Shown: positions 11,195 through 44,972 of the stretch, piece by piece
Layout of the letters: every line of letters starts with the position of its first letter
How positions within the stretch are numbered: the first letter of the stretch is position 1
DNA from: a virus
IMG/VR virus record: IMGVR_UViG_3300044960_000379
Coordinates: 1-52,784 of that record
Direction: 5' to 3' (one strand)
DNA: 52,784 nucleotides
The notes under the pieces: model-generated
What the model was told of the DNA's origin: nothing
What the model saw: the letters and a program-made list of their open reading frames with translations, nothing else
Database searches by the model: none
Position numbers and translations under genes: made by a program

Positions 11195-12502
11195 ATGGCT
11201 GTCAACCCCACCATCCCGCCGGAAAACTTCCTTGATGAAAACGAGCCGTCCAATCCGTTGGCGCGCGCGCCTGAGCCGCCCGTCGAGCCGGAACCGCGAG
11301 CGCAGGGACAGGAAGACGCCACCGGACAGGAAGCGCCGGCAGAACCGGCCCCTGCGCAGCCGGAGCCTCTTGCCAATCCCCTAGCCGCCCCGGCCCCGGC
11401 GCAGGCGGACTCCGGCGAGTCTGACCCTCTGTTCGACCTTGTGCCGCAGCAGGAAGAAGCCGGTGGCACGTCCCTCCCTCCCGGGCAGGAGCACGTCGAC
11501 CCGGCGAAAGCGGCCGAGGCGGAGCCGGTCGACTATCCTGACATGGCGAACAGCCGCAACTTCGGCGTCGAGGACTATCGCCGGCTGCTCCGCCACCCGA
11601 ACGTCCAGCGGGGGCTCTACGCCATCCGGCAGGCCGAGGGCACGCAACGCTACGCCAACCCCTACACGACGGCGTTCGGCGGGCGTCAGATTGGCGACCT
11701 GTCGTGGCACCCCATGCGGGCGTTCCCGTTCCGCAACCCGGCCGGCGGGCCGAACGCCACCACGGCAGCGGGGGCCTACCAGTTCCTCGGGCGCACGTGG
11801 AACGGCGTGGCGCGCCGTCTGGGCCTGCGCGACTTCAGCCCCGAATCGCAGGACATTGCTGCCCTGCACCTCATCAACCAGCGTGGAGGGCTGCGCGCGC
11901 TCGTCAACGGCGACGCTGTCGGCTGGGCGCGGGCCGTCCGGGGCGAGTGGGCGTCGTTCCCCGGCGCGGGCTACGGGCAGGGCGAGCAGCGCATGAGCAG
12001 GATCGTCCGCTGGTTCAACTCTCCCGGCGCGGACGCCATTCCCGACTATGCCGAGATCGCTCGGACAGGACGGTTCGTCTCTCGCCCCAACCCCAACTCA
12101 GGCGCTGGTGCTGTTGCCCAGGTGCCCGGCACGGACGCCGGCACCTCTGGCGGCGGTGCCAGCGCCGCCGCCCCCCGCTCTCCCCGGAACCCGCTGGCCG
12201 ACAACCCCTACGACTACAGCGATCGGGAGACGGGGGGCGGCGACTACGAACCCTCGACGCCGCGCAACCCGCTGGCGGCCGCCGCGCCCAACTACGACCC
12301 GAACGTCTGGGACGAGCGGGACGAGCCGAACGTCTGGGACGAGCGAGACGAGCCGAAGGGCGTAGGAGCCGACCCGATCCCGCCGTCGACGCTCGGACAG
12401 CCTCAAGCGAGCCGCCGACCGCAGAATCCACTGGCGACCAACCCCGCGCAGGCGTATGCTGCGCGCCTGTCAGGATTAAGGCGCAACTTGTTCGGAGGTT
12501 AG
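11195..12502 (+). CDS. Virion-associated transglycosylase/lysozyme
   Basis: A 435-aa protein starting MAVNPTIPPENF. Residues about 1-110 are a Pro/Glu/Ala linker. Residues about 130-285 form a lambda-lysozyme-like (GH104-type) muramidase: IRQAEGTQRYANPYTTAFGG with the likely catalytic Glu, then AGAYQFLGRTWNGVARRLGL, and LHLINQRGGL. The C-terminus is disordered and contains a short direct repeat (NVWDERDEP twice). As a late gene beside internal virion proteins, it probably cuts peptidoglycan locally during DNA entry and is not the lysis enzyme, which is at 45.7 kb. Confidence 0.75.
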   Translation: MAVNPTIPPENFLDENEPSNPLARAPEPPVEPEPRAQGQEDATGQEAPAEPAPAQPEPLANPLAAPAPAQADSGESDPLFDLVPQQEEAGGTSLPPGQEHVDPAKAAEAEPVDYPDMANSRNFGVEDYRRLLRHPNVQRGLYAIRQAEGTQRYANPYTTAFGGRQIGDLSWHPMRAFPFRNPAGGPNATTAAGAYQFLGRTWNGVARRLGLRDFSPESQDIAALHLINQRGGLRALVNGDAVGWARAVRGEWASFPGAGYGQGEQRMSRIVRWFNSPGADAIPDYAEIARTGRFVSRPNPNSGAGAVAQVPGTDAGTSGGGASAAAPRSPRNPLADNPYDYSDRETGGGDYEPSTPRNPLAAAAPNYDPNVWDERDEPNVWDERDEPKGVGADPIPPSTLGQPQASRRPQNPLATNPAQAYAARLSGLRRNLFGG

Positions 12503-12503
12503 C

Positions 12504-13469
12504 GTGGCCTACGCCGACCCGTTTGGCTCGTTCATCGACGGCTTCCGGCAGGGCGAGGCCGACGCGCGCAAGGCCGCCGGAGAATCCAAGCGGTCCCGGC
12601 GCGGCGGCTCTGACGATTCCGGCGGCTCCGGCGGCTCCGGCGGCGGCCGGAACAACGACGACCTCATCCCCAACGCGCCGATCCAGCCCGGGCTCCGCCC
12701 CGGCGACCGTGGCTTTGTTCCGATGCCGCGTCCTCCGGTCCCGGTCCTCACCGACCAGAACCCTTCGCGCGGCTACGGCGAAACCGAAGGCCCGGGCGCC
12801 GATGCGCTTGCCCCGACGCCGTTTGATCGCGGCGGGAACCCCATGGCACCAGAGGACGGCATGGCCCCCGGAGGCGCGGTTCCTGCCCCCGTCGCGCGGA
12901 CGCAGCTGCAGATGCCCGAAGACGGCATGGCTCCCGGCGGGGCCGCGCCGCGTCAGGCGGCGCGGCTGCCCGAGGACGGCGGCGCGCCCGGCGCGGCCAC
13001 GGCCATGCTCCCGCCGCCGGTGCCGAATCCGTTCACTGCACCGGAAGATTTCGGCTCGCCGGGCGTGGCCCCGCCGAGTCTTGAGGACGTGCTCAACCGC
13101 CTGCCCCCGCCGCCGCCGATCCGGCCGCCCGACAACGTCGACGTGCTGCGCATGATCGACCGCGAGGCGCGCGCCGCCGGGCGGGTGCCGTTCTGGGTGC
13201 AGACCCAGCGCGTGCAGGTGCAGGATCGCGACCCGTTTGGCCGGCCGGCCGGGCCGCCGCGCGAGGTGATCCGCCGCAATCCCGACTTCGTCGAGCCGCA
13301 GAACAACGACGGAGCCTGGCAGTCGGTCAGGATGCGTCGGGAGGCCACGCTGCCGGAAATGCGCCGGCGGGCGGCCGCTGGACGGCTCACACGCGAGCAG
13401 TTCAACTACCTGATGCGCTACATGCAGGGCGATCCTGACCTGACCAATCCGTTCGAGGGCGTCCCCTGA
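12504..13469 (+). CDS. Disordered, repeat-bearing virion protein, unknown
   Basis: A 321-aa protein from a GTG. It contains a Gly/Ser tract (DDSGGSGGSGGGR), a Pro-rich region, and about four degenerate copies of an APEDGMAPGGA unit (around residues 113-165). The C-terminal 100 residues are more ordered (PFWVQTQRVQVQDRDPFGRP; LPEMRRRAAAGRLTREQFNY). It lies between the transglycosylase and ejection genes. It may be an internal or linker protein of the virion core. No family recognised. Confidence 0.45.
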   Translation: MAYADPFGSFIDGFRQGEADARKAAGESKRSRRGGSDDSGGSGGSGGGRNNDDLIPNAPIQPGLRPGDRGFVPMPRPPVPVLTDQNPSRGYGETEGPGADALAPTPFDRGGNPMAPEDGMAPGGAVPAPVARTQLQMPEDGMAPGGAAPRQAARLPEDGGAPGAATAMLPPPVPNPFTAPEDFGSPGVAPPSLEDVLNRLPPPPPIRPPDNVDVLRMIDREARAAGRVPFWVQTQRVQVQDRDPFGRPAGPPREVIRRNPDFVEPQNNDGAWQSVRMRREATLPEMRRRAAAGRLTREQFNYLMRYMQGDPDLTNPFEGVP

Positions 13470-14032
13470 TGCTTTACGGACCCTACGCTTCCTACGCCAA
13501 CGGACCTGATACCGTCGCGCCGATGCCGGAGTGGCAGGATTTGCTGCACGCGGCGCGCGTCGACATGCTCGTGAAGGACGTGCTCAAGCGGGTCGAATCA
13601 GTGGGGATGGCCGCAGCGGCGGTAGCGGTGCCCGCTACCCCCACGCCGTTCGGCGACGGAGCCGTTCAGCCGCCGTTCGCCGAGGAGCCGCTGCAGGAAG
13701 ACGCCGCAGGCGGTGCTTTCGACATGTTCGAGCCGCCGGAAGGCGGCCCTACGCTTCCCGACGGCCAGTGGAACACCGGGGCCGACATGGAGACCTATCG
13801 CATCATCGGCGCGACGCCGTTCGATGGACCGATGGAGCAGCCCATGGAGCAGTTCGCCGGCGGGCTCGATAATCTTCGCGTGACGCGCGAGGCGATGCAG
13901 CCGCTTGAGCGCGCGATCAGGCCGACGTTCGACACTTACAGCCGGTTCGGCTATCCTGACCTCAAGGCGGACCCTTACGGTAACGGCATCATCAACGCCA
14001 TCCGCCGGATGGTTCGTGGAGCGCAGGCGTGA
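13469..14032 (+). CDS. Virion protein, unknown
   Basis: A 187-aa acidic protein. The ATG overlaps the previous stop. It has helices at both ends (WQDLLHAARVDMLVKDVLKR; ALIN-type end NGIINAIRRMVRGAQA) and an acidic Pro-rich centre. It sits directly before, and is coupled by GTGA to, the 2249-aa gene, which suggests a partner or small core protein. No motif recognised. Confidence 0.45.
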   Translation: MLYGPYASYANGPDTVAPMPEWQDLLHAARVDMLVKDVLKRVESVGMAAAAVAVPATPTPFGDGAVQPPFAEEPLQEDAAGGAFDMFEPPEGGPTLPDGQWNTGADMETYRIIGATPFDGPMEQPMEQFAGGLDNLRVTREAMQPLERAIRPTFDTYSRFGYPDLKADPYGNGIINAIRRMVRGAQA

Positions 14033-17000
14033 GCTACGTAGTTGGCGATCTTCCGATTCCGGAAGAAGACACCCTCGACCCGTCGGAGCAGCAGCGGCTG
14101 CGGCAGCTGCGCGGGCAGCCGGAGCCGCCGCCTCCGCCGCGTGCCCAACCGCAGCCGTCCCAGCCGCAGACGCAGACAGAGCCGCTTCCGCCGCGCGCTC
14201 AACCGGAACCTCCGCAGCCGGAGCCGCTTCCGCCGCGCGCTCAACCGGAACCTCCGCAGCCGGAGCCGCCCTCGCCGCAGCCGGCGCAGCAGGACTCCGA
14301 TCCCGAAGTCGAGGTTCCCGGCTACGAAGGTCGCTGGTCGCGCGCTCGCGTGCGCCAGCTCCGGGAGCTGGAAGCGCAGCCGCCGACACCGGAGAACATC
14401 GTCGCCTACTCGCGGGCGGTCGGCGAGCGCAGCCTCGACATCCTCACGCGCGACCCGAAGGACGACACCGACACCGACAGGGCGCAGCGCCGAACCGCAG
14501 CATTCCGCCTGCAGTTCCGGCGTTGGGTGGCCGAGAACGGGCTCGAAGAAGCCTTCGCCAACGGATCGGCGCGCGATCAGGAACGAATCATCCAGCAGTG
14601 GGCGGACAGCATCCACCCGCCGACCCCGCAGACCAACCGTCGCGGCGAGCAGACCGGGCGGGCGGTTCGCAGCGCCGAATCCCGCGAGCTGACTGCGGCC
14701 CTCGTCGGCGAAGGGAGGATGCCCTACTGGACGACGTTTGTCCCGGACGAGCAGCAGGTCGACGAAGCGGTCAGGAACAGGACCGCCCGCGAGACGAGGG
14801 CCGCGCAGCAGGCCGCGCAGCAGGCCGCGCGAGCGGCGCAGGCCGAAGCCCGACAGGTGCCGGCAAACCCTCTGGCGCGAACCCCGCAGGCCGCCGCGCC
14901 GCAGGAACCGCAGGCCGGGTTCTGGACCCGCGCGAAGGACGTCGCCGTCGAAACCATCGCCGGAGTCGCGCGCGGCGCTGTCGGGCTTGGCGACTTCGTC
15001 AATCGTGGGCTGCAGCAGCTCGGCATCGGTGCCGACCAGGCCGACGTCGAGGGTATCTACGCGCTGCTGGACGCCGCGAAGGGGCAGTTCCAGTCGGAGG
15101 CTTTCCAGCGCGAGTCGCGAGCGTTCTCCGAAGCCCTGCGCAAGGTCGACGGCAGCGTCATTGTCTCCATGGGCCGGGCGCTCGCGCGCGGCGACACCGA
15201 GGGCGCCCGGCAGCTCGCTCAGCAGTCCGGCATCGGCGAAGCGTGGGACCGCGCCGGCACCACCGTCGTGCTGGCGACTATCCTCGGCGGTGCCGCCGAG
15301 TTCGTCGCGCCGTTCAGCGCCGGCGCGCGAGTGGCGCGCGCCGGGGCCAATGTCCTTGCGCGGGGTGCGCCGCGCGTGGCGACAGCTGCGCCGGCGGCAG
15401 GCGGCATCGCCGCCGCTACCGCTGCTCCGACAGCGACGCAGATGACGGAAGTTGGAGCCGAAGTCCGCCGCCAGACCGGGGACAACGCGCGCGCCGACGC
15501 AGCCTCGGCCATGGCGTCCGCCGGCGGTGCCATCGCGGCGCTCGGCAACGTTCTCGGCGCGACCATCGGTCCCGGCGGGCAGGTCGCCCGCGCTCTTGGA
15601 ATGCGCGGGGCCAGTGCTGTCGCCGGAGAGGCCGCCAGCGCACCCGCCCGGGCCGCCATTGCCGGTGCCGCTGGCGCGGCGCAGGGCGGCCTTGCCACCG
15701 CAGGCCAGAACGTCAACCGCGCCGAGGCCGGCGTCGAGCAGGAGAACGTCACCGGGCCGGCGCTTCTTGGCGGCGTGCTCGGCGGTGTGCTTGGTGCGTT
15801 CCCCACGCGCGGGCGCAGCGAGGCCCCGCCAGCGCCGCCGGTGCCGGCGGCACCTGGCACTGCGCAGGCCGGCAACGGCGTCATCCGGGGCGGCGTCGCC
15901 AAGGCCGAGGCTCAGCAGTCGGCCCCGCAGCCAGTCCTCGCGCTCCCGCCACCCTCCGGCAACGCGCCCGAATCTCTGCGGCGCACGCCGGAGGGCGGGC
16001 TGGTCGACCGCCGCGCCGCTGTTCCCGGAGGGGTGGTGCCGGAGGATGCCGGCGTGCGCGAGCGCAACGCGCCGTTCTCGTGGAACGACCGGCGACAGGC
16101 GGACCCGAACACCATCTTCGTGCCGCCGACGCGCGCCCTGCCCGCCCCCGACCCCGACAACCCGTCGCCGAGGCCGCAGGTCGACATCATCGAGCGCAAC
16201 GCGCCGTTTAACCGCAACGACCCGCGACAGGATTTCCCCCGCGAGCCGGGGGTCATCTACGGCGAGCCGCCGCCCCGGAGGCCGGCACTGCCGGCGCCTG
16301 AGCCCGGGCAGGAGCCGTTCGTGGCGCGCGAGGCGCGGCCCCGCGAAAGTGTCGTCGAGCAGAACGCCCCGCTCAATCCGGCGGACCCGCGACAAACGGA
16401 CCCGAACACCATCTATCTGCCGCGCTACTACGGCTCGGACTTCACCGAAGTTCCTCCCCTTCGTCGGCGGCTCGGCGAGATGCCGCCGGAACCGCCGCCT
16501 GCGGCTCCGCGCGGGCGCGAGGTGCAGCCCGCCGAGCAGATTGTGGCTGACGCCATGTCGCTGCCGCGCAGCATCCTCACGCCCGAGGAACGACAGACTC
16601 TCGGAGTCGACCGGCCGCGCGTGCTCACGCCGGACGGCATCCTCGACGTCAGCGGCGACACGCCGAAGCTCGTGCGGCCGAACACGCGCGAGTTCATCAC
16701 CGCCAACACCGAAGGACGGCTTCCGCCGGCCGGCGTCAGCCCCGAGGTGGCCGCCCGCATCGTCGAGCAGGCGCGCATCCGCCGGCAGGTGGAGCTGGCG
16801 CGAGACGCCTTCGTGGCGCAGCAGCAGGCACGCGGCGTGCCGCGCGATCAAGCGTGGCAGAACCTCGCCCGCGCCGAGCAGGACGGCACGTTCCGGCGCT
16901 TCATGGAGCAGTTCTACAGCCGCAAGGGCGTCCGCCCGGCGGCTTTCGTCGACACGCCCACTGCCGCCGCCGTAGTGGGCGAAATCGACGGCCTTGCCAC

Positions 17001-20000
17001 GCGCGTCGGCGCCGCCGTCGAAGTCTACGACGGCGTCAGGGCCATGCCGATCGAATACCGGCAGGCGTTCGCGGACGGCCAGACCAAGGCAGTCACGTTC
17101 ACCGATCAGGACGGCGTGCGCCGCGTAGTGGTGGACCGCTCCATGCACGCCGACGGCACGGACCTGCGCAAGACGCTGCAGCACGAGATCGTCGGGCACG
17201 TCGCGCTGCCGGAAATCCTCGGAGCTACGGCCTACAACAACCTCATGATGCAGGTGTCCCGCCTGCAGGCCGAGAACAGCGCCGTCGCGCAGCTCTACCG
17301 GGAAGTGGCGAAGCAGTATCCCGGAGCCGACCCCCGCACGCAGGCGGCGGAGGTGCTGGCGCGCGTCGTCGAGGACGGTTCGCTGCCGAAGCGCAGCGGC
17401 GTCCAGAAGCTGCGCGATTCGTTCCTCGCCGCCATGCGGCAGGCGGGGTTCAGGGGCCAGAAGGACGGCCTCATGACCGGCGATCAGCTGCAGTCGCTGC
17501 TCGCCACCGTGCGCGATTCGGTCAACAACCCGGAAGCGGCGTGGAGGCTCAAGGAAGCCACCGCGCCGCTCGGCAGCGCCGGCCTCGGGCAGCAGTTCGA
17601 GCGCACGGTCACCGGAACCCGGCAGACGCTCTGGACGCGCGCTGCGGCCTTCCTGTGGAACGAGAACGCGCCGATCATCGAGGCGGCGCGCACGCTGCGC
17701 GACGTGCGCGGCGTGCAGTCCGGGGTCGTCGACCAGCTGTTCCAGGCCCCCAACAGGATCAACACCACGTTCGACAGGTTCGCCGTCCGGCACATCGAGC
17801 CGATCCGCAAGACCATGCAGGAAGTGGCCGACGCCACGGGCAAGTCACTCGACCAGGTCAGCGTCATCCTCGACCAGATTGCCGCCGCCAAGCACGGCAT
17901 CGAGCGCAACGAAGCCACGTGGTTGCTGTTCGCGAAGGTCGCCGACAGGGTCGAGGGCGAGCGCATCGCGCTGTTCCGCGACTTCCGCAACGGCAAGATC
18001 GACGGCAAGACGCTCCGCGACAACCTGCGCGCCATCGTCACCGACGACACCGCTCGGACGCCGCGCGACGAATGGCGCGGCTACGGTGCCACCGATAGCG
18101 AAATCAGGCAGCTGCAGCGGGCGCTCGCCGACGACCCGGCGGCGCAGATGGTCGAGGCGCGGGTGTGGCCCATGCTGCGAGCCTTCGTCGACGACCTCAC
18201 TGACCATCAGCTCAAGTCGGGCATCCTGACCCGCGCCGAGGTCGACCTCTACGGGTTCGCCAACTATGTCCCGGCGCGCGGCGGCGCGGCGGACGCCCCG
18301 CCGCTGGTCATCAACGACATCGCCGGCAACTATGTCACCAGCCACACGGCGCAGGGACGTGGCGGTCAGGGCATCCCCGAGCGCGTGCTCGGCGAGCTGC
18401 TGGACATGTCGGTGGACACGGCGCGCGCGTTCGGCAACCGCGAGTTCTTCCGCGCACTTGGCGAGGCCGTCGCGCTGGACGTCGCCAACACGGCGGCCGG
18501 CCGCAAGCCGCTCTACGGGCGCGAGGTCGAGTCGTCGAACGTCATCTCGACGGCGGCGGACGACAAGATTCGGTTCAACATCCCGAAGGGCGTCCGCCCG
18601 GAAGACTACCAGAACGTCTTCCGCTACATCGACGCTAACGGCGACCTGCGCTACCTCGCGATCACCGACCCGACGCTTGCCGCCGCCCTGCGCGGCGTGG
18701 CGGAGGGGCCGCCGCGCGCATCGAAGATCGCGGCGGCGGCGCAATCCGTGACCGGCCTGCAGGGCCGCCTGCTGACCTCCCTCAACCCCTGGTTCTGGGC
18801 GACACAGATTCAGCGCGACCTGATCGGCAACACGCTGCGCATGCTGACCGACTACCAGGCGTTCGGCATGACGGCGAAGGACGTGCCGACCATGACCAGT
18901 GGCTTCCTCGCGCGGTTCTCGCGCGAGATGCTTCCGCTGTCGGACACGTGGCGCTACGCTTCCCTGAACGCGGATCGCGGCGCGCAGCTGCGCCTCATCG
19001 AGGAATGGAAGCAGTCGAACGACCCGAAGCTGCGCGAGCGGGCCGAGTTCCTTGAGGCCGGCGCGATCCGCTTCTCGTCGCAGTTCTCCGCCACCAGCGA
19101 GTTTCGCGGCACGCCGCTGGCCAATGTCCTCATGGGGACGGATAACCTCGCCCGGCGCGGTTACGACCGGCTGTTCGGCGCCGATGGCGTGCTCAAGACG
19201 CTCGCCGAGCGCATGTCCACGGCGCAGGAAGCACTTGAGCTTGGGCACCGCTGGGCTTTCTACCAGACCCTCCGCCGGCACGGAATGGACCCGGAGCGTG
19301 CCCGGTCCGAGACGATCCAGCTGACCAACTTCAACCAGCGATCCAAGGTCAGCCGCGCACTGAACCCGTGGTTCGCGTTCTCGCACACCATCACCGCCGG
19401 TGCCGACCGCGCTTTCAACAAGGGTCTCTGGCGCAACGGCGAGATTCCGTGGCGGCGCGTCGAGCTGCCCGATGGAACCGTGCAGCGCACCGTTTCGCTT
19501 GCGGACGTGGCGAAGAATCTCAACTACCTCCGCCTCGGCGTCGTCGCCGCCATGGGCTACGCCGCCTCCGCCGCCACGATGAGCCTTCTCGGTGAGCAGA
19601 AGGACAAGAACGGCGTTTCGCTGGCGGACAAGCTGTCGCCGGAGTCGCGGATGCGGTCGCTGTTCTTCCCCGGCACCAAGCCGGGGCAGGTGTTCCGCAT
19701 CGCCATGCCGGACACCGAGGCCACGCTCGGTCTCGCCCTCGGCGTCGCGATCCACGGGCTCGAAACCGGCACCATGAATCAGGCCGAGGCGCGCGTCGGG
19801 CTGCTCAACGTCGCGCAGCGCATCTTCGGTCCGGCGCTCAAGCCGCGCAACGACTTCCCGGACGGCGAGCGCGGCAACCCCATCACGAGCATGACCCTCG
19901 GCGCGGTCCCCACCGTGCTTCGGCCCGTCGTCGAAGGGGCGCTCAACTACAACTTCGCCGGCAACCCGCTGGACAGGCGCGGTCAGGTGGTCAACGCACC

Positions 20001-23824: not shown

Positions 23825-23839
23825 GCTAGTCCCCGTCTT

Positions 23840-32653: not shown

Positions 32654-32666
32654 GCGAACCCCCTGT

Positions 32667-34610: not shown

Positions 34611-35459
34611 TCAAGCGTCGCAAGCGATGTAGTAGTGGTTGTCGCGCGTCCCCGCCGTCAGGAACGACGGCGCAGCGTGGAAATCGCGCGCGGGCAGAAT
34701 GTTAACCTCCCGGACAAAGCCGAACGGCGCGGTGGTGTAGGTGTCGGACGTCAGGGAGTGCAGCAGATGCTGCACGTATTCCACGCCGCACTCCGAAACC
34801 TTGGCGACGATGTCGGCCGCCGTCCCGCCCTGCGCGGCGGCACGCACGAAGCCATGGTGCGCCGGGCCGGCGTAGGCGAAGGAAGCGAGCATGAGTCGCA
34901 CCGCGATAGGCTGCGCCACGAGCCGCACCGCAAACGGCAGTCCCTGCAGCCGCGCGTCGGGCGAGCCCGGCTTGTCGACGCCGAGGGTGTCAAGGAGCTT
35001 GAGGATGTCGTCGACGGTCCCCTGCGGGAGGGCGCAGACAACGGCGGAAAGGCCGAAGTCGTAGACGCCGAGCCCCCGATCACCGATGGCGAGCGCCGTG
35101 ATGTCACCGCGCACGCGCAGGGTGCCGTCGACGAGGTTCTGTTCCACGGAGACGTCGTGGAGCGTAGCCCCGGCCGCGTAGGCAACCTGACCGCGCTGGA
35201 CGAGCAGCGCAGCGGAAGCGGTCGCAAACGGAACGGCCGAAGGTCGGCGGAAGTCGCCGGCCGCCGACTCCAGTCGAGTCCGCCGGACAACGACGGGCTT
35301 GTGGCCGTTCAGGAGGTCGCGCCGCCAGTCGGACGACAGCAGCGGGCCTTCGACGAGCATGTCGCACGTCGGTGGGCTGAAATCGGCCGCGATCTTGGCG
35401 TCGGGGTGCCAGAGTGCGTCAACCGGGCGCAGGTCAAGCGGGATGGTGCACGGGATCAT
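34611..35459 (-). CDS. Unknown protein in the AAA+/VWA operon
   Basis: 282 aa from MIPCTIPLD, GGAG upstream; longer starts would run into the VWA gene. It is mixed alpha/beta (HKPVVVRRTRLESAAGDF; RVRGDITALAIGDRGLGVYD). No motif I can name. It lies between the VWA and DUF3150-like genes with 2-14 nt gaps, so it is probably made with them. It may be a substrate or adaptor of the ATPase. Confidence 0.5.
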   Translation of the reverse strand: MIPCTIPLDLRPVDALWHPDAKIAADFSPPTCDMLVEGPLLSSDWRRDLLNGHKPVVVRRTRLESAAGDFRRPSAVPFATASAALLVQRGQVAYAAGATLHDVSVEQNLVDGTLRVRGDITALAIGDRGLGVYDFGLSAVVCALPQGTVDDILKLLDTLGVDKPGSPDARLQGLPFAVRLVAQPIAVRLMLASFAYAGPAHHGFVRAAAQGGTAADIVAKVSECGVEYVQHLLHSLTSDTYTTAPFGFVREVNILPARDFHAAPSFLTAGTRDNHYYIACDA

Positions 35460-35461: not shown

Positions 35462-36631
35462 TCAATCTCCAATTCTCACGGAGCGGCCCCAAGGGGCGGT
35501 GATTTCGGTGGTGAACGCCCAGACCACAGGGTAGCCGGGTGCCCGCTGCGGGAACGTGCCGTAGCCGTCGGTGAAGTAGACGAGCGCAGACGGGCGGGCG
35601 ACATGCGCGCGGACCCAATCGAACGGCGGCCGGAAGTCGGTCCCGCCGCCGCCGCACGGCGACAGGACAAGGTCGGAAGGCCGGTCGAACGTCTCAACCT
35701 TGTTGACGTCCGCATCGCAGTAGACGACGTGGATTTTCTCCGGCCGCGTCTGCGCGCAGAGTTGGCGAATGTAGGACTCGAAGCGCCCGAGCACGCCGTC
35801 GTCGATGGACCCGCTGGTGTCCACGACGAGGACAAACTCGCCAGCCGGCTCGCGCCTCCTGCCCGGCATGAGCGTCGGCAACTGGCTGCGCCGCGACGGG
35901 CGCGCCCAGCTGCGGTCGTCCGTCAGGCGGGCATGGGCGGACAGGACCACATGCGCCAGCACGCGCCGCCAGTCGACCTTCGGCGCTGCCACCGCCTGCA
36001 CGACGCGCTCGACCATGGCGGAGACATTCCCGACCGTCTTGGCGGCCGCAGCGGCGGAGATGATGTCCGCCGCCACCTGCGGAGCGGCGGACTCGTCGGA
36101 GTCCAGAATCGCGTCGAAGCCGCCGGAAACGTCGCCGCTGCCGGAGCCGCCCTGCGGGGCGGCAGCCACCAGCCGATCATAGATCGCCTCGGCGCTGTCG
36201 TCGGTGCCGACGCGAGGATCGAACAGGTAGGCGAACGACCGCATCGGCGCGCGGCCGGACAGCACGTCGATCAGGCCGCCGATGTGCATGGGCGGGCCGT
36301 CCTCGGCCGGGAAGTCGAACCTGAACCCCCGGCGCATCAACTCGGCGTTGATGACGAAATCGGCGGCCATGTTCCACAGGTTCGGCCAGCGCGACCCGCG
36401 CCGGATGTTGTGCAGCGTCGCCTTGTGCCACGCCTCATGGGCGAGCACGGTGGCGCGGGTCGCGTCGTCCAGCCTGCCCATGAAGGTCGGGTTGTAGAGC
36501 ACGACCTTGACGCAGTCGGTCGCTGCCGTCTGCTGCGACTCGTCAGGAGTCAGCGTCATCGTGGAAAGGACGGACGCCTCGAAAGGCGCCCCTCCGATGA
36601 GAATGGCCAGAGCCTTGCGAAGATCGGCCAT
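35462..36631 (-). CDS. Metallopeptidase-like + VWA protein (DUF2201 type)
   Basis: 389 aa. The N-terminal DUF2201-like domain has a zinc-type motif, H65-E-A-W-H69 in VLAHEAWHKATLHN, followed by NMAADFVINAELMRRGF. A Gly/Ser/Asp linker (about 160-180) joins it to a VWA domain with the MIDAS motif D271-T-S-G-S and a late GGGGTDFRPPF/FTDGYG. VWA proteins of this kind pair with MoxR ATPases, encoded here 3 nt upstream. Known relatives assist cofactor or metal insertion. Confidence 0.8.
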   Translation of the reverse strand: MADLRKALAILIGGAPFEASVLSTMTLTPDESQQTAATDCVKVVLYNPTFMGRLDDATRATVLAHEAWHKATLHNIRRGSRWPNLWNMAADFVINAELMRRGFRFDFPAEDGPPMHIGGLIDVLSGRAPMRSFAYLFDPRVGTDDSAEAIYDRLVAAAPQGGSGSGDVSGGFDAILDSDESAAPQVAADIISAAAAAKTVGNVSAMVERVVQAVAAPKVDWRRVLAHVVLSAHARLTDDRSWARPSRRSQLPTLMPGRRREPAGEFVLVVDTSGSIDDGVLGRFESYIRQLCAQTRPEKIHVVYCDADVNKVETFDRPSDLVLSPCGGGGTDFRPPFDWVRAHVARPSALVYFTDGYGTFPQRAPGYPVVWAFTTEITAPWGRSVRIGD

Positions 36632-36634: not shown

Positions 36635-37711
36635 TCACTCCTTGCGCAGGAAGTTGCCGGCGGACACGAAGTCGCCGTTGTTGTGGATGTGCCGAAGCAA
36701 CTCGGCATCGGCGATCAGCGCGGACCCGTTGGGCTCGGTCTTGACGCGCGCCATCAGGCGCTTGACGAACAGGCCGGACACCTCGGGGTGGTGACGCTCG
36801 ACCCACCTGAACCCGTTGCGGACCTGCGCGGCGTTCTTGGCGGTGCTCGCCAGCGCGAACGCCTGAAGCAGCGCCATGGCGAGGTTGTCATGCGCGCCGA
36901 AGCCATCCGGGCCGGCCAGCAGCTTCTCGGACGGGTGCAGCTTGGACATGCAGTCCAGCACATGGGCAACGCGCGCCGCCGCCTCGTCGCCCACCACGGC
37001 CGCCAGCATGACCATCCGCATGGCCGGCGACGAGGCGAACTTCAGGACGTCGCTCGCCCGCTTCCACGCGCGCGGCGTCGGCGAGCGAGGCTGCTCGGGG
37101 TCGAACTTGGCGTGCAGGAACTCCTGCGAAACGCGCAGCGCGGCGATGATTTCCGGCGACACGTCGTTGGCGAAAGCATAGTCGGTCCACTCATCGAAAG
37201 TCGGACCGGAGAAGCTGACCACCGCCATGCGGTTGGTCAGCGGACGCGGCAACTCCTCAACCATGGCCCCGGAGCCGGGCGGGTTGCACGCGGCAATCAC
37301 GCGCGTTCCGGGCGGGAACGGGAAGCCACCGCAGCGCCGGTCGAGGATCACTTCGTAGAGCGCCGAGAGAACACCGCGCGAAGCGAGGTTCACCTCGTCG
37401 AGAAACAGCATCACCGGCTTGCCGGCGGACTCGTGGAGTCTGGTCGCCTCAGCAACCAGATCGGGCTGGCAGCGCACGGCCGTGCGCGTGGCCACGTCGC
37501 CGACCGGGATGCCGCCGAGGTCTTCCGGCAGCATCTGACTGGCGCGCCGGTCGAGCAGCGCATAGCCCGCCGCCTCGGCGACGGAGCGAACAATCTCGCT
37601 CTTTCCGATCCCCGGCTTGCCCTCGACCAGCAGCGGCAGGTCAAGCGCCACGGACATGTGGATGGACTCCCGGAGTCCGTCGACCGAAACGGTATTCATC
37701 GTGATAGCCAT
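36635..37711 (-). CDS. MoxR-type AAA+ ATPase
   Basis: 358 aa, GGGGAG before the ATG. Walker A GKPGIGKSE (31-39), Walker B MLFLDEV (101-107), sensor 1 IAACNPP, and an arginine-rich ELPRPLTNRM. The C-terminal region is a helical lid. MoxR ATPases work with VWA partners as chaperones that insert metals or cofactors or dismantle complexes (for example CbbQ/CbbO, NorQ/NorD). It is the first gene after its own strong promoter and directly follows the Cys-x-x cassette. Confidence 0.88.
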   Translation of the reverse strand: MAITMNTVSVDGLRESIHMSVALDLPLLVEGKPGIGKSEIVRSVAEAAGYALLDRRASQMLPEDLGGIPVGDVATRTAVRCQPDLVAEATRLHESAGKPVMLFLDEVNLASRGVLSALYEVILDRRCGGFPFPPGTRVIAACNPPGSGAMVEELPRPLTNRMAVVSFSGPTFDEWTDYAFANDVSPEIIAALRVSQEFLHAKFDPEQPRSPTPRAWKRASDVLKFASSPAMRMVMLAAVVGDEAAARVAHVLDCMSKLHPSEKLLAGPDGFGAHDNLAMALLQAFALASTAKNAAQVRNGFRWVERHHPEVSGLFVKRLMARVKTEPNGSALIADAELLRHIHNNGDFVSAGNFLRKE

Positions 37712-38069: not shown

Positions 38070-38500
38070 GGACAGACTCCTTCGGTCCGGTCGGCGGCGA
38101 TGTTCCGCGCGCCGGTGTCACGCGAACAGCCTGCGCAGCAGGCACAGTTCTGGCAGTCGACGCAGCGGATACAGTCGGTGCAATCCGAGCATCGGCCGCA
38201 GCGGATGCAGCCGGAGCAGCCGGCGCAACCAGAGCAGCGGTGACAGCCGGTGCAATGGTAGCAGTCGTTGCACCAAGCGCAACCGGAGCAGCCGAAGCAC
38301 CGCAGGCATGCCGTGCTTTCGGTGCAGACCACGCACTCCTGGCAGTCGACGCAGTTGAAGCAGTCGGTGCAGCCGAAGCAGCCCTGCAGACTGTCAAGGG
38401 CGGCGCGCGCCGCCTCGACCGACCCCCACCGGGCGACCGACGCCCGATTGCCGTTCGCGTCGGTGATCCATTCGACGGCCATGTTTATGGTTCCTTTCAT
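38060..38500 (-). CDS. Cys-x-x triplet repeat protein, copy 4
   Basis: 146 aa. ATG 38500 forms ATGA with the previous stop and has AAGGAG 7 nt upstream; an ATG at 38482 is an alternative. The family N-terminus WITDANGNRASVARWGSVEA is followed by 28 cysteine triplets. One triplet has lost its Cys (TES, inside VVCTESTACLRC), but the register is kept. The spacers are more varied (YHC, AWC, HRC) than in the other copies. Tail: RNIAADRTEGVCPWP. The sequence between the two ATGs contains the GGAACCATAAACA repeat. Confidence 0.78.
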   Translation of the reverse strand: MKGTINMAVEWITDANGNRASVARWGSVEAARAALDSLQGCFGCTDCFNCVDCQECVVCTESTACLRCFGCSGCAWCNDCYHCTGCHRCSGCAGCSGCIRCGRCSDCTDCIRCVDCQNCACCAGCSRDTGARNIAADRTEGVCPWP

Positions 38501-38952
38501 GGGCGGACTCCTTCGAGTCGGTTGGCGTCGTTAAGGGCTTCGCAGCTGGCGCACTCGTCGCAGCGCGAGCAACGCAGGCACCCGTCGCAGTCGGTGCAGT
38601 CCGAGCAGTCGGTGCATCGCCGGCAGCCGGAGCAGTCGGTGCAGTCCGAGCAGTCGGTGCAGTCGACACAGCCGGAGCAGTCGGCGCACCACGAGCAGTC
38701 GGCGCAGTGACGACAGCCGGAGCAGTCGGCGCACCACGAGCAGTCGGCGCAGTGACGACAGCCGGAGCAGTCGGCGCACCACGAGCAGTCGGCGCAGTGA
38801 CGACAGCCCGAGCAGCCCGAGCAGTCGGCACAGTCGGTGCAGCCGGAGCAGCCCTGCAGGCTGTCGAGGACGGCGCGCGCCGCCTCGACCGACCCCCACC
38901 GGGCGACCGACGCCCGGTTGCCGTTCGCGTCAGTGATCCATTTCGTGGTCAT
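38497..38952 (-). CDS. Cys-x-x triplet repeat protein, copy 3 (longest array)
   Basis: 151 aa. N-terminus MTTKWITDANGNRASVARWG then SVEAARAVLDSL; 35 consecutive cysteine triplets follow, the most regular in the set. A 15-residue block starting SGCRHCADCSWCADC is repeated exactly three times. Tail: EALNDANRLEGVRP. The ATG makes ATGA with the preceding stop, and the upstream GAAGGAG lies within a GACTC/GAGTC palindrome. Cysteine at every third position would line one face of an extended or PPII-like helix. Confidence 0.8.
   Translation of the reverse strand: MTTKWITDANGNRASVARWGSVEAARAVLDSLQGCSGCTDCADCSGCSGCRHCADCSWCADCSGCRHCADCSWCADCSGCRHCADCSWCADCSGCVDCTDCSDCTDCSGCRRCTDCSDCTDCDGCLRCSRCDECASCEALNDANRLEGVRP
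38671..38805. repeat. 45-bp tandem repeat, three exact copies
   Basis: Copies at 38671-38715, 38716-38760 and 38761-38805, in frame within Cys-x-x copy 3 (15 residues each). Perfect identity points to recent expansion. Confidence 0.9.
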
Positions 38953-39323
38953 GGGCGGACTCCTTCGAGTCGGTTGGCCTTGGTCACGTTCCGGCAGTCG
39001 GCGCAGCCGGAGCAGTCGACGCACCGGACGCAGCCCGAGCAGCCGGAGCAGTCGGCGCAGTAACGACAGCCGGCGCAGTCGGAGCAGCCCCGGCAGCCGA
39101 CGCACCGGACACAGTCGACGCAGTTGGAGCAGTCGACGCACCGGACGCAGCCCGAGCAGCCGGAGCAGTCGAAGCAACCCGAGCAGTCCCGCAAGGTGGC
39201 GAGGGCGGCGCGCGCCGCCTCGACGGACCCCCATCGGTCGACAGATGCGTGGTTGCCGTTCGCGTCGGTGACCCACGCGATGGTCATGGACGTGGCCAAG
39301 GACGCAGTCATGGACGCGATCAT
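38949..39323 (-). CDS. Cys-x-x triplet repeat protein, copy 2
   Basis: 124 aa from the ATG at 39323 with AAGGAG 8 nt upstream. It has an extra Met/Ala/Ser-rich leader (MIASMTASLATSMTIA) before the family motif WVTDANGNHASVDRWGSVEA; the leader is weakly hydrophobic. Twenty-two cysteine triplets follow. Tail: RNVTKANRLEGVRP. The last codons (RLEGV) contain the ribosome site for copy 3. Confidence 0.78.
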   Translation of the reverse strand: MIASMTASLATSMTIAWVTDANGNHASVDRWGSVEAARAALATLRDCSGCFDCSGCSGCVRCVDCSNCVDCVRCVGCRGCSDCAGCRYCADCSGCSGCVRCVDCSGCADCRNVTKANRLEGVRP

Positions 39324-39325
39324 GG

Positions 39326-39766
39326 TCAGGCTCCTTCGAGTCGGTTGGCGTTGGTCACGTTCCGGCAGTCCGAGCAGCCGGAGCAGCCGGAGCAGTCGAC
39401 ACAGTCGAGGCAGTCGGTGCAGCCCCGGCAGCTGGCGCACCGGACGCAGCCGGAGCAGCCATAGCAACCGGCGCAGTCCGAGCAGTCCGCGCAGCCGAAG
39501 CAGCCCCGGCAGCCGGAGCAGCTGGCGCACCGGACGCAGCCGGAGCAGTCGACGCAGCCGGAGCAGTCGGCGCAACTGCGGCAGTCGAGGCAGTCCGAGC
39601 AGTCGGTGCATCGCCGGCAGCCGGAGCAGTCGGCGCAGTTGGTGCAGTCGACGCAGTCACGGCAGCCTCGCAGGGAGGCAAGGGCGGCGCGCGCCGCCTC
39701 GGCCGATCCCCAGCGGTCGACCGACGCCCGGTTGCCGTTCGCGTCGGTGATCCATTTCGTGGTCAT
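39326..39766 (-). CDS. Cys-x-x triplet repeat protein, copy 1
   Basis: 146 aa. N-terminus MTTKWITDANGNRASVDRWG then SAEAARAALASL; 34 consecutive triplets follow. The residues between cysteines are mostly S-G, V-D, A-D, T-D, R-G. Tail: RNVTNANRLEGA. The ATG overlaps the stop of the 591-aa gene. I do not recognise a named family. (Cys-x-x)n with short Asp/Gly/Ser spacers could chelate many Zn or Fe-S units, or form disulfide-laddered helices. Confidence 0.8.
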   Translation of the reverse strand: MTTKWITDANGNRASVDRWGSAEAARAALASLRGCRDCVDCTNCADCSGCRRCTDCSDCLDCRSCADCSGCVDCSGCVRCASCSGCRGCFGCADCSDCAGCYGCSGCVRCASCRGCTDCLDCVDCSGCSGCSDCRNVTNANRLEGA

Positions 39767-41538
39767 GGGCAGACCTCCTCGCGCCGGATCAGATGCGCCT
39801 GCACGGACGCCGGCGCCTTGCCCCGTCCGGCGACGTGCAGCAGCGGCACGGTCGGCGCGATCAGGATCGTCAGCCCCGCGTATCGGCTGCCGCCGAACCT
39901 CACCTGCAGCGACCGCGCAAGGGCGACGGCCGTCGGCACGCCGAACCAGCCGATCATCGTCGCCAGCGCCGCTTCGCCGGGCGCGACGGGGCCGGCCAGC
40001 GCCGCCTCGACCGCACGCACGTCGCCCTTCGACGCACGCAAGGCGCCGCGCAGCCGATCCGCCCCCGGGACGTGCAGCCCCACCAGCCCGCGCCCGGCGA
40101 AGCGCGGACCGCGCCGCGCCTGATCCAGATCGCCGGAAAGCACCGCCACGGTCAGCGGGGCGGGCGGAACGGGCGGAGCGTGCGGATCGGAAGCATCGGA
40201 GGCATCGGAGGCATCGGTGTCGAGCAGCAGCGCCGTCCGGACGAACGTCTCCGTGGCCGCAGGGTCGAGCAGCAGCACTTCGCCGGACCGGACGTCAGGC
40301 ACCAGAGACAGTCCGCAGTCCACCGCCGGGGCAGCCCCGCTCGCCGAACGACAGAACACGCGCGCCACGTCGCCCCTGCGCGTCCCGTCCGCCGTCGGCG
40401 AGCGCACCACCGACGACAGAAGCGCCGGATCGCCGCCGATCATGCCAGCGACAGCCTCGCGCGCCCGGTGCCAGACAGTCGCCGAGGACACAAGCGAGTC
40501 GCCTCCCGAGGAGGCCGAGGACACAAGCGAGCCGTGCTCCGGGACCGCCGCCGTCGCAGCCGCCGCCACCAGCACATGCCCGCGCCGGATGGAGCCGTCC
40601 GGCATGGTGTGCGAGCAGGCCGGCAGCGCCGTGGCGAACACGTCGGACTCCACGAGTCCGACAGCGCCGCTCATGTCGCGCATCGTCTCGACGGCGACGC
40701 GAACGCGCTCGACCCGATCCGCGAGCGCCTGCGGATCGTCATCCCAGACAACTCGCACCATCCCGCCCTGCCGGAACCCATCCACATCGCACGGACGGGC
40801 GCGGAGCGGCGAGATGACGCCGCACCAGCCCATGGCGAGCGCGCCATGCGCGGAACCGTCAGGCACGAACACCGTGCTGGACCCGTCAGGATCGGAGGAG
40901 TCGTATTCCATCCCGGCCGCCACCAGCGCACGGATCGGCACGTAGGGACGCGACGACAGGGACGCCGGCGCGCCAGCCTCCCGCAACCGGACCACGGGGC
41001 AGAACACCGGCACCGTCGTTGTCGAGTGAAACACGCTATGCTCCGGCAAGGGCAAGGGCACGAACACGGGCGTGCCGTCACGCGGTCCGACCGCCAGCGG
41101 CGGCAGGACAGACTCCGGGAGTCCGAGCGTGATGGTGGTAGTGCCGTCTAGCTTCTGCCGGGCCCACAGACCAGGAACCCACCTGCTCAGCAGCGCGTTG
41201 AGCCGGCGCGCCGTGCTCGCCGAGCCATACCCGTCAACCGCGAAACCGACCACACGGGCATCGGCAATACACTCCGGAAGCGGCGGGATCACGCCGACCG
41301 GCCGCCCCGGCATCGGCCGGAACCCCTTCATCCAGCGGCGGAGCGAACGCTGATCCGCCACGTCGAGCCAGCGCGGACCGGACAGGCGAACGTAGAAGAT
41401 GTTCCTGGAGAAATGCGACCACACGATCAGGTTCCGGTCGCAGTAGAAGGTCACGGTGGTGCTGCTGCCGCAGGACCGCGCGTAGATGAGCTGCGGCTCG
41501 GGCTGGGCCGGACGGCGAGGACGGTGAAGGTTGGGCAT
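39763..41538 (-). CDS. 591-aa protein heading the Cys-x-x operon, unknown
   Basis: 591 aa from MPNLHRPRR; CCGGAG lies 7 nt upstream, inside a GACTC/GAGTC palindrome. An upstream ATG at 41604 would leave almost no leader after the promoter and has no ribosome site. The chain is globular (YARSCGSSTTVTFYCDRNLI; MIGWFGVPTAVALARSLQVR) with a Ser/Asp-rich stretch DTDASDASDASDPHAPP. The C-terminal 100 residues look like a separate alpha/beta domain. It is coupled by ATGA to Cys-x-x copy 1. No motif identified; it may modify or use the Cys proteins. Confidence 0.6.
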   Translation of the reverse strand: MPNLHRPRRPAQPEPQLIYARSCGSSTTVTFYCDRNLIVWSHFSRNIFYVRLSGPRWLDVADQRSLRRWMKGFRPMPGRPVGVIPPLPECIADARVVGFAVDGYGSASTARRLNALLSRWVPGLWARQKLDGTTTITLGLPESVLPPLAVGPRDGTPVFVPLPLPEHSVFHSTTTVPVFCPVVRLREAGAPASLSSRPYVPIRALVAAGMEYDSSDPDGSSTVFVPDGSAHGALAMGWCGVISPLRARPCDVDGFRQGGMVRVVWDDDPQALADRVERVRVAVETMRDMSGAVGLVESDVFATALPACSHTMPDGSIRRGHVLVAAAATAAVPEHGSLVSSASSGGDSLVSSATVWHRAREAVAGMIGGDPALLSSVVRSPTADGTRRGDVARVFCRSASGAAPAVDCGLSLVPDVRSGEVLLLDPAATETFVRTALLLDTDASDASDASDPHAPPVPPAPLTVAVLSGDLDQARRGPRFAGRGLVGLHVPGADRLRGALRASKGDVRAVEAALAGPVAPGEAALATMIGWFGVPTAVALARSLQVRFGGSRYAGLTILIAPTVPLLHVAGRGKAPASVQAHLIRREEVCP

Positions 41539-41622
41539 GAGCAGACTCCGGGGAGTCGGCCGGGGCGACTGCCACGCGCCGTCCGGCCTGCGTGAATAAG
41601 GCATAACTGTGGCAGTATTTGA

Positions 41623-41651
41623 ATTATAGCATCATATACATTGGGTGTCAA
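41623..41651 (-). promoter_or_regulatory. Consensus sigma70 promoter for the Cys-x-x operon
   Basis: Minus strand: TTGACA (41651-41646), 17-bp spacer, TATAAT (41628-41623). Both hexamers are exact consensus. The start of transcription is expected near 41616, giving a leader of about 78 nt to the chosen ATG at 41538, with the palindrome at 41544-41557 covering the ribosome site. Confidence 0.88.
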
Positions 41652-42498
41652 TAGCGGAGTTATGTGGGAAAAGGGGCTTATATACAGTCGTGAGCGGCTT
41701 TCCCACAATTGGTTTGTTGTCCGTTTTAGGGAAGCAATCCTAGAGTGAGCACCCAATTGTGGCAGACGGCGGCTCAAAGCAGGTAAGCCCAGTCAACCTC
41801 GGCGACCCCAGCGTTGTGTGGAGCCAGTGATTATTTTTCTCGGCCCTCTCGGAGCCGAATGTGTCAAAATTAAGGAATGTGGGATTACGGCGACTGCGGC
41901 ACATAGCGGCGATAAGTAGGCTCAGTAGGGAGACTTGGCTTGTTTTGCCGCCAGGATGCGGAAAACCCAGATGTATACGTAGCAAATGGCGGAGGCGGCA
42001 CTGGGCATACGTAACGGAATTATATATGCCGAGCGGCGTAAGAGGGATTGCGGCGGGGCTATATGCGTATACGCGCGGCGTGTTTTGCGGGGTGGAGGGC
42101 GCGGAGAGGGAAGTCCAGAGGGTGTGTGGGGGGTCGTGGTATTGCTGTCTCAGTGAAGGAAATGGAGGTATAAAAATGCGAATGTGGCGGAGGTGTGGCG
42201 TTGCCACAATTCGCCGCCGCTGACGAGACCCTACCTTCCAGTTATATGATAAGATTCACTAGTAAATAATGTCTTTGCTGTATATATCCAAGTCCATACG
42301 CATTTCTATGGACAGATAGACCGCCCCCAAAGTGCCGCTTACGGACAATTTCCATTCGCCTACTCTTTATAAGTCAGTTTATTGGTATGACGGCACGAAG
42401 AATGCCTAGCCAAGTTTCCCGAAATAAAATACTGGGTATACATACTCATTTTCGCCACAATCGCCAGTGTAGTTTCTCGCTCCCGGCCAACAGACCGC
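41652..42498. other. AT-rich non-coding island, possible origin or control region
   Basis: About 850 bp without a convincing gene. GC in sampled 60-bp lines is about 32-48%, against about 65% elsewhere. It lies between divergent promoters (41651 leftward, 42499 rightward). AATTGTGG or its complement recurs (near 41703, 41754, 42205; a partial near 42456), as does GTATAC (41973, 42067, 42438). Two overlapping ORFs (41740-42207 minus; 41861-42223 plus) lack family features. I see no tRNA. Candidate replication origin or regulator-binding region, or recently acquired DNA. Confidence 0.5.
42176..42223 (+). CDS. Possible 15-aa peptide
   Basis: GGAGG at 42164-42168 is ideally spaced before an ATG. 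The peptide MRMWRRCGVATIRRR is very basic. It ends at a TGA inside the AT-rich island. It could be a leader peptide or chance. Its frame is the end of a longer, unconvincing ORF. Confidence 0.2.
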   Translation: MRMWRRCGVATIRRR

Positions 42499-42562: not shown

Positions 42563-43420
42563 GTGCGCAACACCTACACCCACCGTCTGGCGGAGGAGGC
42601 AAAATCCGCTCTTGGGAAGGACTATATCCGTAACTACTGCGTCGAAGTGCTGGCTTGGGCGAAGCTGGCGCTGGCACTGGACGTTCCGAGGGTCCCGCGC
42701 TCGCCGACGTCTCCGATGTCGTCGCTGCGGCGGCTCAACATCGTCCATCCGCATGTCCACGTGGCGCAGCAGGTTCCCGCCATGCAGTTGCCGTGGGGGG
42801 CCGTGGCGCGCGACGCGCCGCTCGGCCCGGCGACGATCTTCGTCTACCGGACGGGACGGCTGCTGGCCTTCAACAAGCTGCTGCTGGCCGAAGTTTTCGC
42901 CTCCATCGAGTCTTCGGTCGTGGCGGCTCCGTCGCGCCTTGCCAAGGCGCGCAACGCGGCCTCGCGGGCCTTCATGCGCACGTCCATCGCCGCCGAGGCC
43001 GCCGCTGCCCTCGGGCGGGTTCCCCCGGGCCGCTGGACGCCGCAGACGGACGTCCTGTGCGGCTACAACCTCCCGACTGTCGGCAGGATCGCCGTGGATG
43101 GTTTCTCCGCGCCGGGCGTGACGGCCTACGGCTTCTTCACGCGCGCTGCCGGCAAGCAGTCGGCCATGGCGCCGGCCGTGGTCGTGGCACAGACGTTCCT
43201 CGACGCCATCCAGTCCGGCTCGCTGGACCGCTGGACAGGCATGGCTCCGGCTGCTGGCAGGCTTGGCGCGCAGGCACCGGTGGCACCGTCGCTGCAGGCG
43301 CCTCTGGCAGACTCCGGGAGTCCGATCCCCATGCCGACGCGGGTCGAGGCCCGCCCCGATCCGGGCGTCGATGACGACCTTCGCGATGTGTTCGAGTCGC
43401 TGCGTGCCGTCGAGGACTGA
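42563..43420 (+). CDS. Unknown 285-aa protein, lone rightward gene in the early block
   Basis: GTG start with AGGAGG at 42550-42555. The N-terminal 180 residues look globular (YIRNYCVEVLAWAKLALALD; GPATIFVYRTGRLLAFNKLL). Then a Pro/Ala linker and an acidic end (DPGVDDDLRDVFESLRAVED). No family recognised. Opposite orientation to its neighbours and a private promoter next to the AT-rich island suggest a regulator or replication initiator. The acidic tail recalls SSB or transcription-interacting proteins. A GACTC palindrome lies at 43310-43322. Confidence 0.55.
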   Translation: MRNTYTHRLAEEAKSALGKDYIRNYCVEVLAWAKLALALDVPRVPRSPTSPMSSLRRLNIVHPHVHVAQQVPAMQLPWGAVARDAPLGPATIFVYRTGRLLAFNKLLLAEVFASIESSVVAAPSRLAKARNAASRAFMRTSIAAEAAAALGRVPPGRWTPQTDVLCGYNLPTVGRIAVDGFSAPGVTAYGFFTRAAGKQSAMAPAVVVAQTFLDAIQSGSLDRWTGMAPAAGRLGAQAPVAPSLQAPLADSGSPIPMPTRVEARPDPGVDDDLRDVFESLRAVED

Positions 43421-43530
43421 CGGCCGCCGCGCTCCGCCGCGCTCCGCTCCGCCGCGCAGTTCCCCGCGAGGAACCATAAACAACGCAACCCCGGGGCCGC
43501 TCTGCCGCGTCGTTGCCTGCATGGAACCAT

Positions 43531-43561
43531 AAACATCGCCGCGCCGCGCGCGGCGATGTTT
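43531..43561. terminator. Hairpin after the 285-aa gene
   Basis: AAACATCGCCGCG (43531-43543), 5 nt, CGCGGCGATGTTT (43549-43561): a 13-bp perfect stem with A/T ends on both sides. It lies 110 nt past the rightward stop and could terminate in either direction; the U-run is short (GTTT). Confidence 0.5.
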
Positions 43562-43795: not shown

Positions 43796-44689
<894 letters not shown>

Positions 44690-44753
44690 AGGTCACTCCT
44701 ATCGGGTTTTGAGCGGATCGCATGGCCGTAAACCCATAACCGACCATGCAGCA

Positions 44754-44782
44754 ATTATTATACAAAACAGCCGCTAAGTCAA
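44754..44782 (-). promoter_or_regulatory. Sigma70 promoter for the 297-aa gene
   Basis: Minus strand: TTGACT (44782-44777), then either AATAAT at 17-bp spacing (44759-44754) or TATAAT at 14 bp (44762-44757). The first fits standard spacing. AT-rich surroundings. The leader is about 60 nt. Confidence 0.75.
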
Positions 44783-44800
44783 TAACTACGTTACGCGCTA

Positions 44801-44972
44801 GACTCCGTGGAGTCCGGCATCGCCGCGCTGCGCTTTGCTGCGCCGCAGCAAGCAATGCTGCGCCGCCGAAAGCAGATGCTGCGCCGCAGCAAGCAATGCT
44901 GCGCCGCGAGACGCGGGTGCCGCGCTGCCGAAACGTAAATGCTGCGCTGCCGAAACCGGACTCCACGGAGTC
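44801..44972. repeat. 172-bp element with 17-bp terminal inverted repeats
   Basis: GACTCCGTGGAGTCCGG at 44801-44817 is repeated as its exact reverse complement at 44956-44972. Each end holds a GACTC/GAGTC palindrome. The inside is built of repeated ATGCTGCGCCGC-like units (a 29-bp segment GCTGCGCCGCAGCAAGCAAT... occurs twice, near 44843 and 44887). Non-coding. It resembles a MITE or a compact regulatory array. No transposase nearby. Confidence 0.7.

Follow-up and report, generated by a model that had tools for sequence, protein, structure and literature searches.

The genome of the temperate Streptomyces phage phiC31 carries the conserved inverted repeats (CIRs), around 18 copies of an inverted repeat of around 17 bp that are mainly intergenic and early and are bound by the phage repressor. 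Here we analyze another family of short inverted repeats, the dyad GACTC-N3..5-GAGTC, in a stretch of viral DNA of 52,784 bp with 68% GC (IMG/VR virus record IMGVR_UViG_3300044960_000379), which was analyzed as a whole and is hereafter called the window. In mycobacteriophages of Cluster A, stoperators of the L5 Gp71 type provide more than 20 short repressor sites per genome, and their motif in each lineage tracks the divergence of the repressor (PMC6550527, PMC9283540). These sites are 13 bp long, asymmetric, bound by a monomer, oriented in relation to transcription, and located mainly in short intergenic spaces (PMC9283540, PMC6550527). The OB sites of KorB in plasmid RK2 are short symmetric dyads that serve in the long-range silencing of a region (PMC11790492). 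Finally, Cluster K genomes have 11-19 short repeats each, the SAS and ESAS, whose function is unknown; SAS is an asymmetric element of 13 bp at translation starts (PMC3203893). A search of the literature, of incomplete coverage, revealed no description of the dyads studied here.

Excess and shape of the GACTC dyads

An earlier note on this DNA had counted 21 copies of the palindrome, 18 of them within 22 kb, with well under one expected in the whole window. All 21 exact copies are present in the window where it had placed them (Table 1), and 18 lie between 23.4 and 45.0 kb. The low expectation also held, as dinucleotide shuffles of the window gave a mean of 0.26 dyads and a maximum of 2. The excess further withstood a shuffle of synonymous codons inside the called genes (mean of 1.03 in-gene dyads and maximum of 4, vs. 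18 real ones). Only two 5-mers have 21 copies as spaced palindromes, GACTC and CGCCG. The latter is accounted for by composition, and the 21 copies of the former compare with 0.12 expected from co-occurrence. The excess of GACTC dyads in the window is thus confirmed.

The two arms are separated by three bases in ten dyads, four in nine, and five in two, and the window has no exact copy at spacings of 0-2 or 6-15. Dyads with one mismatch are no more frequent than background. The half-site is wider than five bases and reads CNGACTC, giving CNGACTC-N3..5-GAGTCNG in full (e.g., CAGACTCCGGGAGTCTG), with a C at -2 and a G at +2 in 16 of the 21 sites each. Not all copies are independent: those at 38506 and 38958 occupy equivalent places in tandem paralogues and probably result from a single event followed by duplication. 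These paralogues (phrog_15341) are three adjacent genes at 38497-39766, two with a dyad at the equivalent spot and the third with a one-mismatch dyad at 39329. Similarly, the record IMGVR_UViG_3300045136_000401 also has the GACTC dyad, but it is 100% identical to the window in all stretches compared and is not an independent case. Searching the word as CNGACTCCNNGGAGTCNG matched 63 contig stretches, and many dispersed copies were found only in the window's own population.

The preference for the leftward early block, also claimed before, is clear: this block holds 18 dyads (0.73/kb), the left structural block 3 (0.14/kb), and the right structural block none. Most dyads of the window lie within genes, as they do in the related genome G005, and they show no preference for gene starts (0.05 near starts vs. 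0.04 at random).

Private words and constraint on DNA

We searched for any over-represented dyad in viral contigs with related DNA polymerase or SNF2 genes, using loci of at least 10 kb (n=99). The dyad threshold was exceeded in 11 of the 99 loci, one of which is the window's own population, and in none of 33 unrelated contigs or 99 block-shuffled relatives. The words differ among distant relatives (Table 1) and occur in 4 to 80 copies per genome, at a spacing that is near-fixed in each: 3/4(5) in the window, 5/6 for GTTACC, 6(7) for GTTAGC, 2 or 1 for CTAACA, and 4 for GTTATC. The isolated Rhizobium phage RHph_TM3_14A (RHI) has zero GACTC dyads and 55 GTTACC-N5/6-GGTAAC sites at one mismatch at most (GTTACCTNNNNAGGTAAC), and the 18-bp word of G012 is found in just two of 2.9 million viral contigs. 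The presence of different many-copy dyads in relatives sharing replication genes settles the kind of element and points to a widespread, fast-evolving control by DNA binding.

Some other signals were set aside, namely the C/G runs resembling dyads in L147, L139, and L152, which are homopolymer hairpins, and L120, which is a local repeat. On checking, CRP-1, CRP-212, Rollin, MW202426, KPP25, and phiA008 showed no strong dyad family. Repeated AAC..GTT words were observed under the threshold in L132, L156, and L020 (AACACGTTC, AACAGGTTG, and AACACGTTG) and are possibly further, weaker lineages of the system.

Each word could in principle fold in mRNA into a stem of 5-7 bp with a loop of 3-6 nt, and several sites cover ribosome-binding sites or start codons, which would fit hairpins for processing, translation control, or antitermination. 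In the GTTACC clade, however, 60 sites are exact, 107 have a mismatch in one arm only, and 2 have a symmetric compensating pair, with mismatch spectra that are alike in the left and right half-sites. Such a pattern would be expected if the half-sites were read independently in DNA, but not if they formed a stem. In the window, position -1 is unpaired at 11 of the 21 sites although the next position out (-2) is conserved. Some dyads lie in noncoding stretches or near convergent gene ends. Hairpins, one of the roles proposed earlier, are effectively refuted in the GTTACC clade and extremely improbable overall: the dyads are DNA elements. The signals in their flanks are symmetric, with no directional motif in eight genomes and no -10/-35-like signal.

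Sites are also kept while their surroundings diverge. The comparison was possible only in the CTAACA lineage, which is a sister of the window's lineage and uses another word. There, all 15 sites of L198 and L201 (92% identical) are in the same column with arms 100% identical, and the 8 sites common to L198 and L204 (69% identical) have arms 97% identical vs. 70% for their flanks. Across these pairs of close relatives, arms are thus 97-100% identical vs. 70-92% for flanks, columns are unchanged, and the central base is free. Together with the codon-shuffle excess, the one-sided deviations, and the symmetric flanks, this bears out the earlier view that conservation is at the level of DNA and not of protein. 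At eight window sites in six genes, the encoded residues align to 5-8 homologues with few or no gaps, which indicates that these sites were made by substitution and not by insertion. A mobile mini-palindrome or REP-like element is not supported. The other proposal, paired GANTC sites sensed through CcrM methylation, does not hold either, since both arms contain GANTC in the window but it is absent from the word of every relative.

Function of the dyads and candidate binders

We think it probable that the dyads are dispersed operators of a dimeric, fast-evolving, phage-encoded regulator acting over the early block and on its own gene. The two-fold symmetry, the one-sided deviations, and the symmetric flanks agree with the dimer-binding site suggested by the earlier note. 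In each phage having the system, a sequence-specific dimeric protein of the phage would bind the symmetric dyads, reading one lineage-private word at a near-fixed spacing, at 4-80 sites per genome that lie in and between genes and are densest in the early/replication block. Many occupied sites would then block or slow RNA polymerase across this block or, alternatively, hold it in a shared protein-DNA complex. Early expression would be timed or shut off, presumably by transcriptional repression, and the gene of the binder would be autoregulated. The confidence that we express in this and in the other readings is a matter of judgement, and the readings are not exclusive shares of a whole.

In seven relatives (RHI, G002, G004, G008, G009, G011, and G012), dyads are over-represented where genes begin or end, and the fraction near starts is 0.21-0.55 vs. 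about 0.05-0.11 at random (0.55 vs. 0.06 in G012). In G011 (L180), the dyad TAACAAATGTTAG includes the called start codon of the gene downstream at some sites (~11054, 11758, 13899, 17185), and the copy at 13303 takes in the stop codon of the preceding gene as well. Of nine genomes, six have a dyad near the start of the MoxR gene (the window and 5 of the 8 others, which have other words) and five have one near the start of the VWA gene, vs. 0.9 expected in each case; several words are involved in these counts, but several genomes share a word and the cases are not fully independent. The sites of G011 and G012 are confined to the early block, those of G005 are concentrated in it (1.01 vs. 0.07/kb), and those of G002 are found genome-wide (1.5 vs. 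1.1-1.2/kb).

The main rival holds that these are architectural sites: the binder would organize the genome during its replication or compact it, or would label it as self so that it is replicated, packaged, or protected, and would play no direct part in transcription. The spread of the sites in G002 and the in-gene sites of the window and G005, which do not favor gene starts, would suit such a role, as would an inter-site spacing more even than random in G008 (coefficient of variation of 0.37, P 0.0002), G002 (P<0.001), RHI (P 0.003), G011, and G009. No evenness beyond random is seen in the window, G005, or G012, and the strong early-block bias of four genomes and the start and stop enrichment of the seven relatives also speak against architecture, which we regard as rather unlikely.

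Small inverted repeats also form the N4-type promoters, and the majority of the G012 sites are placed 26-45 bp 5' of start codons, as one might expect of dispersed promoters or activator sites that each serve a single gene and are used by a phage factor or RNA polymerase. We give this very little credence, because no genome examined has a directional flank motif, the sites of the window are mostly within genes, and the giant protein has no match among the solved structures of the PDB. The profile of T7-type RNA polymerases (PF00940) was silent in all records, controls included, and is uninformative.

If the dyads are dispersed operators, their binder is presumably encoded by the phage rather than by the host. 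We infer that it is the product of the first early gene, the best positional candidate (Table 1). Dyads flank this gene in G008, G011, RHI, and L196. Among all proteins of G011 and all those of G012, the best match of the G008 protein is the positional candidate (z of 4.8 and 4.2), a modest hint that the candidates of these three genomes form one diverged family. AlphaFold models of the candidates are helical proteins, with two domains and a linker in the G008 family, and had no convincing known fold in PDB or BFVD. The sites might instead belong to a host DNA-binding protein, the word tracking the host, as words vary among phages of presumably different hosts and the phage binder remains a candidate only. 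Yet the words are private, that of the window being multi-copy solely in its own population among the 63 contig stretches that share an extended form of it, and the candidate phage genes are located among the sites, which makes a host protein distinctly improbable. SNF2 relatives in bacterial genome contigs had no dyad family, and hence no host is indicated.

Several observations weigh against dispersed operators. No homologue of the window candidate, which was chosen by position, was found, nor any sequence match to the candidates of relatives. The z-scores of the G008 protein are modest, and there is no such support for A8-L204 or for the window. Profile comparison among the candidates (hhalign) revealed no homology, their comparison with Pfam and PHROG no convincing family match, and the A8 model (pLDDT 77), which is all-helical with two domains and was examined with a helix-turn-helix repressor in mind, no convincing fold match. 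The placement of the in-gene sites of the window and G005 is not obviously suited to promoter control. Finally, 88 of the 99 relatives are below the dyad threshold and gene content is only weakly associated with dyad presence, with no strong tracker. Either the group does not have this system as part of its core, or weaker words escaped detection.

A broader reading, which we put forward tentatively, is that of a genome-wide address system in a diverse group of phages that mostly lack an integrase. A protein that evolves fast, be it architectural or regulatory, would shift specificity together with its dozens of DNA sites, and a private word would mark the early region of each lineage. If true, this would be a class of phage system not described before. 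Regulatory evolution has yet to explain how 10-80 DNA sites and the protein that binds them change in concert, and this group has several different words on a common gene backbone, including that of an isolated phage, RHph_TM3_14A. Dispersed operators have been described mostly in plasmids and in mycobacteriophages that are temperate, and their logic would here extend to phages without a detected integrase.

The window matches PHROG and Pfam families for a major head protein, portal, terminase, internal virion protein, and a giant protein of 2249 aa with an LPD38 domain, and for the genes of the early block (primase, SNF2-type helicase, exonuclease, DNA polymerase, methyltransferase, HNH endonucleases, DUF2201 VWA protein, and MoxR-type ATPase). 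Its closest isolated relative is RHph_TM3_14A, with related gene content and a DNA polymerase and portal that are 34% and 29% identical. Megablast against known phages and Rfam and tRNA scans gave no matches. A tyrosine integrase (PF00589) was found neither in the window nor in 7 of 8 relatives, G012 having one; serine integrases were not searched and some records are fragments. The 'putative integrase' of RHph_TM3_14A (L007 42239-45322) is homologous to the primase/polymerase-like protein of the window, and its label is probably a misannotation.

Three other sequences of the window were observed. A second, non-palindromic word, GGAACCATAAACA, has five exact copies, at 23164-23176(-), 32664-32676(-), 38482-38494(-), 43470-43482(+), and 43523-43535(+), and zero copies with one or two mismatches. 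Two copies are just 5' of start codons, and it is possibly a promoter or ribosome-binding element. An AT-rich, apparently non-coding region of ~850 bp (41600-42460) upstream of the gene at 39763-41538 is a possible origin or early promoter region. At 45090-45215, a tandem repeat of ~20 bp (gcccgacggcgcaacccca) separates the leftward and rightward blocks.

Table 1. Dyads, candidate binders, and blocks in the window and in related genomes
Feature	Genome	Position	Strand	Remarks
Dyad N4	Window	11408-11421	.	Within endolysin/tail gene 11195-12502
Dyad N3	Window	16596-16608	.	Within giant virion protein gene 14029-20778
Dyad N4	Window	20015-20028	.	Within giant virion protein gene 14029-20778
Dyad N3	Window	23424-23436	.	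Primase gene 20738-23872; encoded RLAES gap-free vs. 8 homologues
Dyad N4	Window	25907-25920	.	SNF2 helicase gene; encoded RLEGV gap-free in alignment
Dyad N3	Window	30046-30058	.	DNA polymerase gene
Dyad N3	Window	32330-32342	.	Within 31972-32406
Dyad N3	Window	34301-34313	.	Conserved gene of no known function 33733-34596
Dyad N5	Window	35266-35280	.	Within 34611-35459
Dyad N4	Window	36090-36103	.	VWA/metallopeptidase (DUF2201) gene
Dyad N5	Window	36537-36551	.	Close to VWA gene start
Dyad N3	Window	37428-37440	.	MoxR-type AAA ATPase gene
Dyad N3	Window	37665-37677	.	MoxR gene, nt 34-46 from its start
Dyad N4	Window	38506-38519	.	Gene junction, tandem-paralogue region (phrog_15341)
Dyad N4	Window	38958-38971	.	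Covers ribosome-binding site of tandem paralogue 38497-38952
Dyad N3	Window	40646-40658	.	Within 39763-41538
Dyad N3	Window	41111-41123	.	Within 39763-41538
Dyad N4	Window	41544-41557	.	Intergenic; covers ribosome-binding site of 39763-41538
Dyad N3	Window	43310-43322	.	Close to 3' end of 42563-43420
Dyad N4	Window	44801-44814	.	~110 bp upstream of first leftward gene
Dyad N4	Window	44959-44972	.	~270 bp upstream of first leftward gene
Mainly leftward early/replication block	Window	20738-45400	-	
Candidate binder (weak)	Window	43796-44689	-	First leftward gene; 297 aa, Ala/Pro-rich linkers; position as in relatives' candidates
Candidate binder	RHI	18372-19100		EVB41_028; homologues in G002, L195-L197, all with GTTACC word
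Candidate binder	G008	14570-15082		Homologues in L198-L204, all with CTAACA word
Candidate binder	G011	8176-8688		First early-block gene
Candidate binder	G012	53668-54447		First early-block gene
GTTACC-N5/6-GGTAAC	G002, G004, L195-L197			78 sites in G002 (58.7 kb)
GTTAGC-N6-GCTAAC	G005			20 sites
CTAACA-N2-TGTTAG	G011			15 sites
CTAACA-N1-TGTTAG	G008, G009, G010			17, 13, and 7 sites
GGTTATCCCGGGATAACC	G012			11 sites
TAGGG-N4-CCCTA	G013			4 sites

Comparison with known systems

The SAS of Cluster K are asymmetric, unlike our dyads, and the symmetry of the latter, which moreover do not favor gene starts in the window, rules against reading them as SAS. Several relatives do resemble SAS in the placement of dyads at starts, e.g., G012. 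With the CIRs of phiC31, the dyads have in common the many inverted-repeat copies in one phage genome; they differ in that the CIRs are mainly intergenic and belong to a temperate phage of Streptomyces.

The likeness to KorB OB lies in the symmetric dyads and in the words of some relatives (GTTAGC/GCTAAC), which resemble OB/OA. Yet KorB is a CTP-binding clamp of the ParB family, and here the word varies by phage and the ParB_N domain was found in 0 of 14 records (the window and 13 related ones), with controls detected in 10 of the 14; a ParB/KorB-type binder was rejected on this count. Like stoperators, the dyads are many short sites across one genome, 21 in the window and 4-80 in relatives. 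They differ from them by being two-fold symmetric with symmetric flanks and often within genes, and whereas stoperators belong to temperate phages, tyrosine integrase was undetected in 8 of 9 records here, with no ParB_N. On the tests run, the dyads would thus function like L5 stoperators or KorB operators while being members of neither family.

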